Shown: positions 27,795-36,449 of the stretch, one piece after another
How positions within the stretch are numbered: position 1 is the stretch's first letter
Layout of the letters: every line of letters begins with the position of its first letter
Origin: an uncultured Bacteroidota bacterium
GTDB taxonomy: Bacteria; Bacteroidota; Bacteroidia; Bacteroidales; FEN-979
DNA length: 36,580 nt
Assembly: GCA_937900965.1 (NCBI GenBank)
Contig: CALCGJ010000144.1
Location: 1-36,580 of the forward strand
Direction of reading: 5' to 3'
Translations under genes and position numbers: made by a program
The notes under the pieces: model-generated
Told to the model about the DNA's origin: nothing
Seen by the model: the letters and a program-made list of their open reading frames with translations, nothing else
Databases searched by the model: none

Positions 27795-28877
27795 ATGATT
27801 ACAGATCCATCACAGTTTCTCGAGATGGTCAACGCATTCCGGGTGAGCCGGATCATTCTTTCAGCTGCAGAACTGAAGGTGTTTGATCCCTTGAACAATG
27901 GCGGGAAAACATCAGAAGAACTGGCGACCGTACTAAATACAGAATCACGGGCGACAGACCGTTTATTGAATGCCCTGGTTTCCATCGGATTGCTCAGAAA
28001 AGAGGCAAACTGTTTTTTGAATACTCCCTTTACAGACAAATTTCTGGTCACCTCCTCCCCTGCCTATTTGAGCGGTCTGGCCCTTACCAATCACACCTGG
28101 AAAACCTGGAGTACCCTGACAGATGCTGTGAAAGCAGGCTCTTCTGTCTTTTTCGAAGATCTTATCAATGAGCGGCCGGAGGAGTGGCAACAGGCATTCA
28201 TTGCTGCGATGCACCGCCGGGCTGGTCCACAGGCTGTTGAGGTAGCAGATGCTCTTGATCTGACCCGGGCAAGACGGGTACTGGATGTAGGCGGGGGTTC
28301 CGGCGCCTTTACCCTGGAGTTTCTGAACCGAAACCCGGAAATGACCGGTGTTGTGTTTGATTTACCGAAGATTATACCGATTACGGAAAAATATATTACT
28401 TCACCCAATGACCCCTCTCCGGGATCTATCCACCTCACCCCCAACCCCTCTCCTCAAGGCGAGGGGAGTATCCGGCATCCGGCATCCGGCATCCATGATC
28501 GAATTTCTGTTTTGTCAGGCGATTATCTGAAGGATGACTTTGGGTCAGGCTTTGATCTGGTCTTCATGTCGGCTATCATCCACATCAACTCCCCGGAAGA
28601 GAACAAATTGTTGATCAGGAAGGGTGCAGAAGCATTGAACCCGGGCGGGCAACTGGTTATCCTGGATCATATTATGAGCGAGGATCGTACTGAACCACGT
28701 GTTGGAGCCATCTTCGCCATCAACATGCTGGTTGGGACGAAGCATGGGGACACTTATACCGGGGAGGAGTTGGAATCCTGGATGCACGATGCTCGATTAC
28801 ATAATATTTCTCTGATAACCACACCGTCGGGGGTGCAGCTTATCCGAGGGACGAAGGACGAAGGACGAAGGACGTAA
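27795..28877 (+). CDS. SAM-dependent O-methyltransferase (acetylserotonin/hydroxyindole OMT-like)
   Basis: This 360-residue protein has the two-part layout of plant- and ASMT-type O-methyltransferases. An N-terminal winged-helix dimerisation domain (residues about 12-80, with ILSAAELKVFDPL and TDRLLNALVSIGLL) precedes a Rossmann SAM-binding domain with RRVLDVGGGSGAFTLEFL near residue 160 and ISVLSGDYLKDDFGSGFDLVFMSAIIH later. The catalytic His of that family may be HINSP or the HI in LDHIMSED. Residues about 213-235 (HLTPNPSPQGEG then IRHPASGIHD) are encoded by dispersed repeats inserted into the fold, and the last seven residues (DEGRRT region) by a heptamer array that also supplies the stop. 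It may still fold, as the insert lies between core motifs. The substrate is unknown. Confidence 0.83.
   Translation: MITDPSQFLEMVNAFRVSRIILSAAELKVFDPLNNGGKTSEELATVLNTESRATDRLLNALVSIGLLRKEANCFLNTPFTDKFLVTSSPAYLSGLALTNHTWKTWSTLTDAVKAGSSVFFEDLINERPEEWQQAFIAAMHRRAGPQAVEVADALDLTRARRVLDVGGGSGAFTLEFLNRNPEMTGVVFDLPKIIPITEKYITSPNDPSPGSIHLTPNPSPQGEGSIRHPASGIHDRISVLSGDYLKDDFGSGFDLVFMSAIIHINSPEENKLLIRKGAEALNPGGQLVILDHIMSEDRTEPRVGAIFAINMLVGTKHGDTYTGEELESWMHDARLHNISLITTPSGVQLIRGTKDEGRRT
28433..28469. repeat. Dispersed palindromic repeat inside the methyltransferase gene
   Basis: The C-rich stretch CCTCACCCCCAACCCCTC followed by a GAGGGGAG arm can pair around a short loop. It encodes HLTPNPSPQGEG, a peptide I know from many unrelated bacterial proteins where such C/G-rich intergenic repeats have entered genes. 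Confidence 0.7.
28470..28496. repeat. 7-bp tandem array, unit ATCCGGC, inside the methyltransferase gene
   Basis: Three perfect ATCCGGC copies and a partial fourth follow the palindromic repeat directly and encode part of the IRHPASGIHD insert. Confidence 0.85.
28851..28874. repeat. 7-bp tandem array, unit ACGAAGG, at the methyltransferase 3' end
   Basis: Three perfect ACGAAGG copies and a partial fourth encode the last residues, TKDEGRRT, and are followed by the stop codon. The same unit, on the minus strand, makes the 20-copy array in dnaE, where it encodes the same TKDEGR peptide. Confidence 0.9.
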
Positions 28878-33011: not shown

Positions 33012-33063
33012 ATCCATAAATCAACTTAACCCAGTTTCATATCAAGTCTCACGTATCGGATAT

Positions 33064-33098
33064 CCAGGATCCAGCATCTAGGATCTAGGATCTAGGAT
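33064..33098. repeat. 7-bp tandem array, unit CYAGGAT, over the dnaE stop codon
   Basis: Five copies (CCAGGAT, CCAGCAT, then CTAGGAT three times) overlap the 3' end of dnaE. The dnaE stop (TAG, 33085-33087) and the preceding residues LDPRS are read from this array. The same unit occurs at 12771. Confidence 0.9.
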
Positions 33099-36000
33099 CT
33101 AGTTTCACCGGCATCTTCGCCATCTTCTCTACTTCCATACTCGGGAACCCGAACTCCTCAACAACTTTCCCCAGAATTAAATAGATACCATCCCCTCGAA
33201 ATGGATATTTATTGACTGACTGCGGGAAATGTACCGTATCGAAAAATTGTCCGTGCACATCGATGAAGGTCCCGAAGTGCATCCACTCCTTTTTGACTGT
33301 CCGGACATATTTGATGGCAACGAGCAGCCCCAGCATCCTCACCTTCTTTCGTATATATTGATTCATCTCTGTCGCCATAATCTCTCCTCTGAAAGAGGTC
33401 TCAAGAAGATCGAACCAGGTATGTGTCACCGGCCAGCCAAGGAGCTCGATTTCGTCATATACCTCCTCGAGCTGTGATTGCCAGAGAGTAGGAAGTTCGA
33501 ATTTTTTAACAGGAGTCTCAAATAATGTATGAGGGTGTGAGGGAGGCTCAGAGCGCAGAGCACAGAGCTCAGAGGTTGCTTTTTCATTCTGAGCCCTGAG
33601 CCCTGAGCCCTGAGCAGAAAAAACAGCCCGGCCTCCTGACTTTTCCCCTCGTGCCTCATGCCTCATGACTGGTGCCTGTTGCTTTCCCAGCAGCATATGC
33701 GCTTCCCACAACAATGTAGATTTCGGCTTTTCCGTGAAGCGGAAAGCGCCGACACGAATCAGGATAATAAGCTGATCCATCGTGATCGGTACCCTGGCGA
33801 TAAAGTCTTCCAGCCCGTCATACAGCCTATCTTGCTTCAACCCTCGTCCCTCGTCCCTCTTCCCTCGTCCTTCGTCCTTCGTCCCTCGTCCTTCGTCCCT
33901 CGTCCCTCGTCCCTCGTCCTTCGTCCTTCGTCCCTCGTCCCTCTTTCCTCGTCCTTCGTCCTTCGTCTTTCGCCCCTCACTGATCATTTTCCCCACCTGG
34001 GCCTCCAGGTTTGCGATGTGGATAAAACCCACATAGATATCCTTTTCGCCACGTAAACAGGTAGTGTAGTCCCCATTATTCACACAGGGAAGATGCATGA
34101 CGGCTCCCCAGTTCTTTGCTTCATTCATGTAGACCCACGAAGGGTAGAACCCCCCAAAGTTATTGATCACTCCTACCATGAACTCCAACGGGTAGTGGGC
34201 CTTCAGGAAAAGACTCTGGTAGCTCTCCACCGCATACGAGGCCGAATGAGCTTTGGAGAAAGAGTACCCTGCAAACGACTCAATCTGACGCCACACCTCT
34301 TTGGTCACCTCTTCGGGGTAACCAAAATTTTTGCAGTTGCTGAAAAACTTGTCGATGATCCTCTGCAGCTCCTTTTTCGACCTGTATTTCCCGCTCATGG
34401 CACGGCGGATCACATCAGATTCGCTCAGGTCGAGGCCGGCAAAATGGTGGCAGATCTTCAGCACATCCTCTTGGTAAACCATCACTCCGTAAGTCTCTTT
34501 CAATTGCTCTTCCATCACCGGATGGAGGTAGTTAAACTTCCCGGGATTATGGAAGCGGTAGATATACTCCTTCATCATGCCCGATCGGGCTACGCCAGGT
34601 CGCACGATCGAACTGGCCGCTACCAGGGTTCGGTAGTCGTCGCACCGGAGCTTTTTCAGCAAACCGCGCATCGCCGGGCTCTCCACATAAAAACAACCGA
34701 TGGTACGGGCTGATTGCAATAATTTTTTCACCTCAGGGTCCTGTTTGAACTGCTGCACCTGATGTACATCCACGTTAATGCCGGAATTCCGTTTCACGAT
34801 TTCGGCCGTTTCAAATATGTGACCGATTCCCCGCTGACTCAGGATATCGAGTTTCTCAAAACCGATATCCTCCGCCACATACATATCCCACTGGGTTGTT
34901 GGAAACCCTTTGGGCGGAAGATCGAGTGCCGTATAACAGGTGATCGGCTTCTCGGAAATCAGCACTCCTCCTGCATGAATACTTCGGAGGTTTGGAAAAT
35001 CAACCATCATCTCCCCTATCCTGCTGATCTTCTCAATGATGCCGCTTCGGTTGATGGCCTCTTCGGGATGTTTCAGAAATGCATCTATCTCTCCTTTTGG
35101 CAACCCATGAACCTTTCCCAATTCCCGGTAGATCGAGTTGCCCTTGAACGTCGACATGGCGCCAAGCAAAGCAGTATGTTCATGACCATATCGCTTAAAC
35201 ATGTAATCCAGTACTTCATCCCGGTCCTTCCATGAGTAATCAATATCGAAATCGGGTGGCGAAGTACGTTTGGGGTTGATGAACCGCTCGAAGTATAGGT
35301 CCAGCTCAATGGGATCCACATTAGTGATCTTCAGGCAATAGGCTACAATGCTGTTGGCGCCGCTGCCTCTTCCCACATGGTAAAACCCCCGCGACATGGA
35401 ATAGCGGATAACATCCCAGGCGATGAGGAAATAGGCCGCAAATCCCATCTTGCAGATGATCTCTATCTCATGCCTGATACGATTGCGGGCTTCAATGTTC
35501 TTTTTACTGTAACGGTATTCCAGTCCGTCGAGGGCAAGTTTTTCCAGCAGCACCTGGTCATCGTAAACATCACCTGTAAAAGTCCGTTTGTTCTTGCACT
35601 CCCTGAAGTCGAAGTCGATGCTGCAGGCTTCAATCAGCTTCTCTGTGTTCCGGATGATCTCCGGATATTCCTGAAAAAGTTCAAGCAATTCGTCAATTGG
35701 CATCATCACCTCATCGGAAGATGCCAGTTGTTGCGGTTCCAGGCGGGTGAGCAGGATGTTGCGGTCTATCGCACGCAGGTTCCGGTGCAGTTCCCAGGTA
35801 GATTCATCTGCAACCGTAACCGGTGCCATAATAATCATCCGGTCAAGCAGGTGCCGGTGGCGGGAGAGAACAATGGGGTTGACGTCAGCAGGTCGAATGC
35901 CGATAAACTGGTGAATTGGTGAACTGGCGAACTGGTGAGTAATGTTCCTTTTCTCATTTTCCCATTTTGCCATTTTACTATTTTGCATTGCGGACTGCGG

Positions 36001-36414
36001 ACTGCGGACTGCAGACTCGAATGGATAGATCACCACCACATCATCAAACTCAGGCGCCTTGTCCGGCAAGGGCTGGTTCCGTAGATTGTGATGGGTCAGA
36101 AATTCATTCAGCTCGCGGAAGCCGTCGTTGTTTTTGGCCAGCCCGGTGTATAACAATTGGTCTTTCCGGCGAAATTCGATCCCGGCGATAGGTTTGATCC
36201 CCTTCTCCTTACACGTTGCTATGAAATCCATGATCCCTGTAGAATTGTTGATATCGGTCAGCGCCAGTACCGGCGGGATATCCGGCCGGGATCTCGGGGC
36301 AATCCGGCGGGTCGCCCGCACAGCATCGTAGGCCCGTACCGCCTGCTCCACCAATTGTTCAATGGAGAGGGTACCGTATCTGAGGGAGTAGTATGAGTGA
36401 CAGTTTAAATACAT
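33085..36414 (-). CDS. dnaE: DNA polymerase III alpha subunit, short Bacteroidota type, with three repeat-derived inserts
   Basis: The replicative or repair polymerase of this 1109-residue protein shows an N-terminal PHP domain (MYLNCHSYYSLRYGTLSIEQL), whose HxH metal motif is degenerate (NCH). The C-family catalytic aspartates are intact: Asp388, 390 and 392 in PPDFDIDYSW and Asp523 in KLDILSQRG; GRGSGANSIVAYCL and SFSKAHSASYAVESYQSLFLKAHYP are also typical. A helix-hairpin-helix-like and OB-fold end (LLVAIKYVRTVKKEWMHFGTF) follow. Three low-complexity inserts, residues about 132-171, 811-859 and 916-959, are encoded by 7- and 8-bp tandem arrays. Without them the protein is about 976 residues, close to the usual size of the second, short DnaE of this phylum. 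The last residues come from another array. It may be the mutagenic or repair type, since it lacks the usual long dnaE1 regions, but its partner genes lie outside the window. Confidence 0.9.
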   Translation of the reverse strand: MYLNCHSYYSLRYGTLSIEQLVEQAVRAYDAVRATRRIAPRSRPDIPPVLALTDINNSTGIMDFIATCKEKGIKPIAGIEFRRKDQLLYTGLAKNNDGFRELNEFLTHHNLRNQPLPDKAPEFDDVVVIYPFESAVRSPQSAMQNSKMAKWENEKRNITHQFASSPIHQFIGIRPADVNPIVLSRHRHLLDRMIIMAPVTVADESTWELHRNLRAIDRNILLTRLEPQQLASSDEVMMPIDELLELFQEYPEIIRNTEKLIEACSIDFDFRECKNKRTFTGDVYDDQVLLEKLALDGLEYRYSKKNIEARNRIRHEIEIICKMGFAAYFLIAWDVIRYSMSRGFYHVGRGSGANSIVAYCLKITNVDPIELDLYFERFINPKRTSPPDFDIDYSWKDRDEVLDYMFKRYGHEHTALLGAMSTFKGNSIYRELGKVHGLPKGEIDAFLKHPEEAINRSGIIEKISRIGEMMVDFPNLRSIHAGGVLISEKPITCYTALDLPPKGFPTTQWDMYVAEDIGFEKLDILSQRGIGHIFETAEIVKRNSGINVDVHQVQQFKQDPEVKKLLQSARTIGCFYVESPAMRGLLKKLRCDDYRTLVAASSIVRPGVARSGMMKEYIYRFHNPGKFNYLHPVMEEQLKETYGVMVYQEDVLKICHHFAGLDLSESDVIRRAMSGKYRSKKELQRIIDKFFSNCKNFGYPEEVTKEVWRQIESFAGYSFSKAHSASYAVESYQSLFLKAHYPLEFMVGVINNFGGFYPSWVYMNEAKNWGAVMHLPCVNNGDYTTCLRGEKDIYVGFIHIANLEAQVGKMISEGRKTKDEGRGKRDEGRRTKDEGRGTRDEGRGTKDEGRGKRDEGRGLKQDRLYDGLEDFIARVPITMDQLIILIRVGAFRFTEKPKSTLLWEAHMLLGKQQAPVMRHEARGEKSGGRAVFSAQGSGLRAQNEKATSELCALRSEPPSHPHTLFETPVKKFELPTLWQSQLEEVYDEIELLGWPVTHTWFDLLETSFRGEIMATEMNQYIRKKVRMLGLLVAIKYVRTVKKEWMHFGTFIDVHGQFFDTVHFPQSVNKYPFRGDGIYLILGKVVEEFGFPSMEVEKMAKMPVKLDPRS
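33549..33576. repeat. 7-bp tandem array in dnaE, unit CAGAGCN
   Basis: Four copies (CAGAGCG, CAGAGCA, CAGAGCT, CAGAGGT) inside the third dnaE insert encode part of the SELCALRSEPPS stretch. Confidence 0.85.
33589..33616. repeat. 7-bp tandem array in dnaE, unit CTGAGCC
   Basis: Three perfect CTGAGCC copies and a fourth, CTGAGCA, 12 bp from the previous array, encode AQGSGLRAQN in the third dnaE insert. Confidence 0.9.
33647..33674. repeat. 7-bp tandem array in dnaE, unit CCTCATG
   Basis: Two perfect CCTCATG copies flanked by CCTCGTG and ACTGGTG encode the MRHEARGE region of the third insert. Confidence 0.75.
33841..33980. repeat. Twenty-copy 7-bp tandem array in dnaE, unit CCYTCGT (minus ACGARGG)
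   Basis: Twenty consecutive heptamers keep phase over 140 bp; fifteen are exactly CCCTCGT or CCTTCGT, and the last two are degenerate. Because three units make 21 nt, the encoded insert repeats every seven residues (DEGRGKR, DEGRRTK, DEGRGTR, DEGRGTK). Confidence 0.97.
35911..35942. repeat. 8-bp tandem array in dnaE, unit GTGAACTG
   Basis: Four copies (GTGAATTG, GTGAACTG, GCGAACTG, GTGAGTAA) encode the HQFASSPIHQF part of the first dnaE insert. The same unit recurs at 36415-36430 upstream of dnaE. Confidence 0.85.
35953..35984. repeat. 8-bp tandem array in dnaE, unit NCCATTTT
   Basis: Four copies (CTCATTTT, CCCATTTT, GCCATTTT, ACTATTTT) follow the previous array after 10 bp and encode the SKMAKWENEK part of the first insert. 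Confidence 0.85.
35991..36018. repeat. 7-bp tandem array in dnaE, unit CGGACTG
   Basis: Three perfect CGGACTG copies and a fourth, CAGACTC, encode the AVRSPQSAMQ part of the first insert. With the two 8-bp arrays it makes a 110-bp composite. Confidence 0.9.
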
Positions 36415-36449
36415 GGTGAACTGGTGAATTGATTAATTATTAATCAATT
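36415..36449. promoter_or_regulatory. Repeat-plus-palindrome region upstream of dnaE
   Basis: Two copies of the 8-bp unit GGTGAACT (36415-36430) adjoin the dnaE ATG. They overlap a perfect 23-bp palindrome at 36427-36449 with arms AATTGATTAAT and ATTAATCAATT around one base. The palindrome could be an operator, for example of an SOS-type or other dimeric regulator; no -7 box is visible near it. Confidence 0.45.

Follow-up and report, generated by a model that had tools for sequence, protein, structure and literature searches.

Heptamer and octamer arrays as probable passengers in the loops of a DnaE2-like polymerase from an uncultured Bacteroidales bacterium

The dnaE2-like gene and its four insert sites

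An uncultured Bacteroidota bacterium of the order Bacteroidales (FEN-979; assembly GCA_937900965.1) encodes, at one end of contig CALCGJ010000144.1, a DnaE2-like DNA polymerase that carries in-frame insertions at four sites, most of them composed of tandem arrays with units of seven or eight nucleotides. The window analysed here is this entire contig, 36,580 nucleotides long, of which 166 bases lie 5' of the dnaE2-like start codon. Arrays of the same type are dispersed through this genome and its relatives, and those in the polymerase are probably near-neutral passengers. Compared loci, genomes and contigs are designated by L, G and C numbers. The features of the gene are as follows, in window positions.

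33085-36414, minus strand: dnaE2-like gene, a short C-family DNA polymerase of 1109 amino acids, from its open reading frame (ORF), profile searches and structure comparison
36280-36330, minus strand: insert site 1, residues 29-45, PHP domain; GC-rich, without a clear array in the window copy
35905-36018, minus strand: insert site 2, residues ~133-170 (non-core 136-160), PHP domain; arrays of TGCGGAC, TTTTCCCA and AACTGGTG
33832-33978, minus strand: insert site 3, residues 813-861 (non-core 818-861), start of the HhH region; about 20 copies of CCYTCGT
33535-33667, minus strand: insert site 4, residues 916-960 (non-core 917-960), between the HhH region and a conserved LF motif; units CTGAGCC, CTCTGAG and CATGAGG
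35251-35253, minus strand: codon for D388, paired with E. coli D401 in the alignment; the D390 codon follows two codons later
34846-34848, minus strand: codon for D523, paired with E. coli D555 in the alignment
33589-33615: CTGAGCC array called by Tandem Repeats Finder (TRF)
33841-33978: TRF array of CCCTCGT, 19.7 copies
35906-35938: TRF array of AACTGGTG
35949-35984: TRF array of TTTTCCCA
35989-36017: TRF array of TGCGGAC
33062-33102, no strand assigned: ATCTAGG array that includes the stop codon of the gene (33085-33087)
36415-36430, no strand assigned: two octamers, GGTGAACT and GGTGAATT, of the site 2 type, immediately 5' of the start codon
1-48: GCAGTTG array at the contig start, inside which the contig begins

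Five arrays of period 7 or 8 lie within the ORF at a TRF score of at least 40, and seven at a score of 30, the two additional units being CTCTGAG and CATGAGG. A preliminary description of the window had already reported at least seven arrays and twenty CCYTCGT copies, both in agreement with TRF; on the coding strand the latter unit reads ACGARGG and encodes the peptide TKDEGRG. It had also described three repeat-derived, in-frame inserts. The arrays do lie within an open ORF and the three blocks are correct to within a few residues, but there are four sites, residues 29-45 having been overlooked. The extent of the inserts was taken from an alignment of the window protein with 33 relatives (46 near loci minus 13 duplicate DnaE2 proteins, out of 109 loci) and 12 insert-free references from the remaining loci. 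Residues 29-45 and the non-core stretches listed for sites 2-4 sum to 131 residues, including one stray residue, and leave a core of 978 columns, compared with 977-980 amino acids in most insert-free Bacteroidales homologues, so that the earlier estimate of a normal-sized core of about 976 residues was close. In the alignment, the E. coli catalytic triad of D401, D403 and D555 corresponds to D388, D390 and D523; D392, which had been listed with them, is conserved but stands outside the catalytic three.

An AlphaFold model built from 48 sequences (the window protein and 47 of 80 loci; mean predicted local distance difference test score, pLDDT, 80.6) contains five stretches below pLDDT 50, four of which fall in inserts (residues 40-42, 138-164, 819-859 and 913-968). 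All four inserts are predicted to occupy low-confidence, disordered loops, and the best Foldseek matches of the model are DnaE structures. The conserved LF after site 4, which reads QSLF in several relatives, is a putative clamp motif.

Identity of the polymerase

The gene had been described as a DNA polymerase III alpha subunit, but the replicative DnaE1 is a separate gene of the same genome (L090 14575-18144; 1189 amino acids), in which TRF detected no internal array of period 7-10. DnaE1 scores 1334.6 bits, above the replicative DnaE cut-off of 1002, whereas the window gene scores 494.4 bits and passes only the superfamily cut-off in the profile search. Among the 59 loci having at least 2.5 kb of upstream DNA, 42 carry a Y-family polymerase motif no more than 4.5 kb upstream of dnaE2; the candidates in L083 and L014 were verified as IMS proteins, the one in L083 having an HTH-S24 regulator on its far side. 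This combination of two C-family genes with an upstream Y-family motif in relatives fits the arrangement described, in the accessible portions of the literature, for Bacteroidetes, namely a short C-family DnaE2 beside DnaE1 and a PolY2-DnaE2 pair (PMC3919608, PMC6511836). The PHP domain of Bacteroidetes DnaE2 has been termed reduced (PMC3919608), and SOS control has been predicted for dnaE2 cassettes of Bacteroidetes (PMC8565304). The window gene thus most likely encodes the accessory short Bacteroidetes DnaE2 rather than the replicative polymerase, judging by profile scores and gene neighbourhoods. It differs from known DnaE2 in its four repeat-filled loops, such inserts not being mentioned in the available parts of those reports.

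Several observations count against this assignment. The NCBIfam error-prone model PRK05672 gives the window gene only 427.4 bits against a cut-off of 939; DnaE1 also falls below it (621.1). The Y-family motif was not seen upstream in 17 of the 59 loci, including that of the near relative L009, where an ORF6N gene lies immediately upstream of dnaE2, and the window contig itself stops 166 bases upstream, before any neighbouring gene. The ORF6N-domain gene of L009 (5391-5993) has counterparts upstream of dnaE2 in L012 and L020; in L012 and L014 an ORF6N gene sits between dnaE2 and the Y-family polymerase.

The same loops in relatives

The inserts are missing or different in homologues, as the preliminary description anticipated, and they recur at the same four places. 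At least six extra residues are present at sites 1-4 in 12, 28, 20 and 24, respectively, of the 34 family DnaE2 sequences, some of which are partial; one of the 12 references, L028, likewise has at least six extra residues at site 4. The fillings often differ: site 3 encodes IPHPASC repeats in L017 and IYDLRFT in L019, and site 2 encodes EKRKAKS in L009, VNRKSYI in L019 and INSSTHQ in L016. Site 4 varies from 6 to 94 residues among relatives and is near zero in some. Array contents turn over fast: L009, 86% identical to the window protein over aligned columns, lacks any filling at site 3, against twenty heptamers in the window gene.

In the dnaE genes of L009, L083, L011 and L117, neighbouring arrays at site 2 run partly in opposite orientations (e.g. 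AGTAGCGAAATTTCGCTACC in L083), a possible trace of hairpin formation or template switching.

Arrays and hosts across the genome

Tandem arrays of period up to 12 are abundant in the window's own genome, with 120 detected by TRF in 423,784 bases (2.8 per 10 kb), including 64 of period 7 and 30 of period 8. Most of the 120 are intergenic (72), with 32 within ORFs and 16 at ORF ends, while ORFs make up about 92% of the sequence. After removal of the window and four pieces already known to contain matches, 70 arrays remain in 308,807 bases; extrapolation suggests roughly a thousand short arrays in the whole genome. A first 251-kb sample contained 39 period-7 and 17 period-8 arrays, compared with a total of none and one, respectively, in ten dinucleotide shuffles. 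The same-genus genome G004 has 65 arrays in 260,531 bases, and G043, from another family, has six in 100,000 bases, none of period 7 or 8.

The units are limited in kind. Units coincide in 63 pairs of the 64 heptamer arrays, whereas within-unit letter shuffling predicts 3.9; neighbouring arrays were counted apart. A triple of ACGARGG with up to two mismatches matches 318 overlapping places, compared with none for the reversed control, and is also matched in each of the five genus relatives. Of 25 arrays, 16 mix the two main variants of this unit and five contain the next variant, though the seed pattern permitted only the main two at that position and so favoured them. Arrays probably also break the assembly, which comprises 301 contigs, because the window contig and at least five others end in or near them; in these five (C76, C87, C150, C160 and C229) an ACGARGG array lies within 10 bases of an end.

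The inserts had been regarded as a peculiarity of the polymerase. This does not stand, since in-frame arrays of the same type occur in other genes of this genome, including those for valyl-tRNA synthetase (ValS), IspG, MeaB, MutS and a HemW-like protein (interrupted by a contig end); an RNA methyltransferase, a phosphoenolpyruvate-utilising enzyme and an ABC-2 protein are further hosts. One IspG loop is repeat-filled in this genome and five genus relatives, with similar units here and in G001 and G003 and other units in G002, G004 and G005. One ValS loop is likewise repeat-filled, with some units shared, and in other-family genomes both loops are short and without visible repeats. In MutS (L005 1327-3138, minus strand; contig C173) an array of the TKDEGRG/TMDEGRG type follows domain V and precedes QLSFIQL, which by eye resembles a clamp motif.

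Reading frame and constraint

No internal stop was found in any of 43 match rows, which derive from 41 of 61 genomes in a family search with one genome per species. Among 100 arrays from 34 DnaE2 genes (TRF score 30, a set that includes a few native stretches such as SEERKA), ten have a unit that contains a stop. Would-be stops in these arrays are altered in 15 of 15 in-frame codons, compared with 8 of 35 out of frame (Fisher P 2e-7), a value that overstates independence, given that five of the 15 altered codons lie in one L019 array, with TAT where TAA is due, and that L011 and L063 are near-duplicates in the count. All 28 coding arrays are stop-free against 72 of 110 intergenic orientations, to which little weight attaches because the ORF definition favours this outcome. 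Comparison of L011 with L063 reveals 10 nonsynonymous and 3 synonymous codon changes in the inserts and 12 and 40 in the core (P 5e-4). The frame is thus guarded, while in this one species pair the inserted residues drift in a neutral-looking manner. The altered enzyme properties suggested in the preliminary description find no support in these comparisons.

Origin and maintenance of the arrays

Taken together, it is probable that the window gene is a DnaE2 whose loops tolerate dispersed arrays, akin to short tandemly repeated repetitive (STRR) sequences, as near-neutral passengers, with DnaE2 as a preferred host. A limited set of units would recur between loci and turn over quickly, mostly in intergenic DNA, and an array within a gene would survive if the frame is kept, no in-frame stop arises and the loop is dispensable to the fold. 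DnaE2 would offer four such loops, with contents often differing between genomes, and the polymerase would function normally. The arrays may spread by copying, through template switching or ectopic conversion, followed by slippage, which would explain the recurrence of units and the mixed variants better than independent birth.

Some evidence pulls the other way. Site 3 repeats of the TKDEGRG type are common to the window protein, L010 and L083, and IYDLR-like ones occur in many relatives; some fillings may thus be inherited rather than all being independent. No copying event was seen in the sequences compared, and some array families could stem from certain units slipping more readily than others. 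Furthermore, 15 genomes of other genera have 44 arrays in 46.9 kb of DnaE2, against 6 in 40.0 kb of ValS and 8 in 18.3 kb of IspG, which could mean selection instead of tolerance alone. The simplest reason for the excess is weaker constraint on an accessory polymerase; in three own-genus genomes the three genes are alike, at about 1.1-1.2 arrays per kb, ValS and IspG having been picked for comparison because they hold arrays in the window's own genome.

That array excess is also what would be expected were the inserts adaptive linkers, selected because they change the polymerase, for example by lengthening the tether before the putative clamp motif that follows site 4. This is distinctly unlikely, given the apparently unconstrained drift of insert residues between L011 and L063, the variable and sometimes negligible length of site 4, and the presence of arrays in unrelated enzymes. 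It is very unlikely that the arrays act as a contingency switch, in which changes in heptamer number toggle an error-prone polymerase. Slippage of a single seven- or eight-nucleotide unit in a coding region would shift the frame, and simple repeats are an established cause of phase variation in other genes, according to a source available in part (PMC4692102), yet every match row in the family search is open. Arrays also reside in the ValS and IspG genes, which are essential, such that an 'off' state should be lethal. An assembly artefact is extremely improbable: the fragmentation of the genome, the array-bounded contigs and the array at the start of the window contig are compatible with one, but the same inserts occur in the near-identical species L011 and L063 from separate projects, and neither the avoidance of stops nor the constrained core would be expected of it.

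Plain slippage, with arrays born in place by chance duplication and recurring units being the more slip-prone heptamers, is unlikely. In many bacteria, long simple repeats most often have heptamer units, for which slippage has been proposed (Mrazek 2007, cited in PMC4679880, available in part), and four insert-free relatives (L009, L013, L020 and L023) have a stretch at site 3 with CGA every seven nucleotides. Against this stand the excess of identical unit pairs and the mixing of the same two variants in most ACGARGG arrays, with the seed-pattern bias noted above; native lag-7 periodicity, considered as a seed for the arrays, is not raised at the four sites, which are not among its peaks in 46 insert-free homologues. 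It is unlikely, though conceivable, that a dedicated process in this family writes or copies a small vocabulary of seven- and eight-nucleotide units, core proteins, DnaE2 foremost, serving as continually re-looped landing pads. A link with reverse transcriptase was rejected, as PF00078 matches 19 of 41 genomes and is both present and absent within the family. There was no RVT_1 match in G004, for which array density was measured, or in G002, both incomplete drafts, and a reverse transcriptase with this domain thus seems not to be needed for spread.

Relation to known repeats

The components of this phenomenon are of known kinds, namely dispersed heptamers and DNA tolerated in frame. STRR heptamers occur in the RNase P RNA gene of heterocystous cyanobacteria, where, as here, arrays occupy a tolerated place in a functional gene, though an RNA gene has no frame to preserve. 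In the portions of the literature available, dispersed heptamers include GGGAATC in Xanthomonas and GGGGA(C/T)T in Nostoc (PMC4692102), as well as TAACTGA in Beggiatoaceae, Cyanobacteria and five Bacteroidetes, the last lying, when within ORFs, mostly in those of hypothetical proteins (PMC4679880). As described there, these resemble the present arrays in their head-to-tail units, the presence of one unit at many loci and their mostly intergenic location; they differ in that many unit families coexist in each genome here and identified core enzymes carry arrays in frame. Rickettsia palindromic elements, in a source available in part, likewise appear to be tolerated in frame by the unrelated genes through which they are dispersed, but consist of a ~150-bp palindrome with a conserved peptide (PMC10969869), whereas the present arrays are short, tandem, built from many units and encode no fixed peptide. 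In-frame heptamer arrays in Bacteroidales core genes were not found in the literature searched, which excluded preprints and most subscription papers; the TAACTGA repeats of PMC4679880 came nearest.

The phenomenon is family-wide, with the window as a strong single-gene case. Units that are not a multiple of three would be expected to be purged from essential genes, yet a tRNA synthetase, an isoprenoid enzyme, a mismatch-repair protein and a polymerase all retain such arrays in frame here. Loops often refilled with different units across relatives constitute a natural map of insertion tolerance in core enzymes and a tractable case for the dispersal of short tandem repeats in bacteria. For annotation, the arrays account for unusual heptapeptide tracts in this Bacteroidales family and are a probable cause of some of its contig breaks.

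At 28439-28494, within a methyltransferase ORF (27795-28877), the hairpin element ACCCCCAACCCCTCTCCTCAAGGCGAGGGG precedes an ATCCGGC array, and both are in frame. Similar hairpins recur in the sample of this genome and a similar peptide, LTPNPSPEGEGS, is found in ValS of G004; from its sequence, the hairpin appears to be a second kind of dispersed in-frame element.

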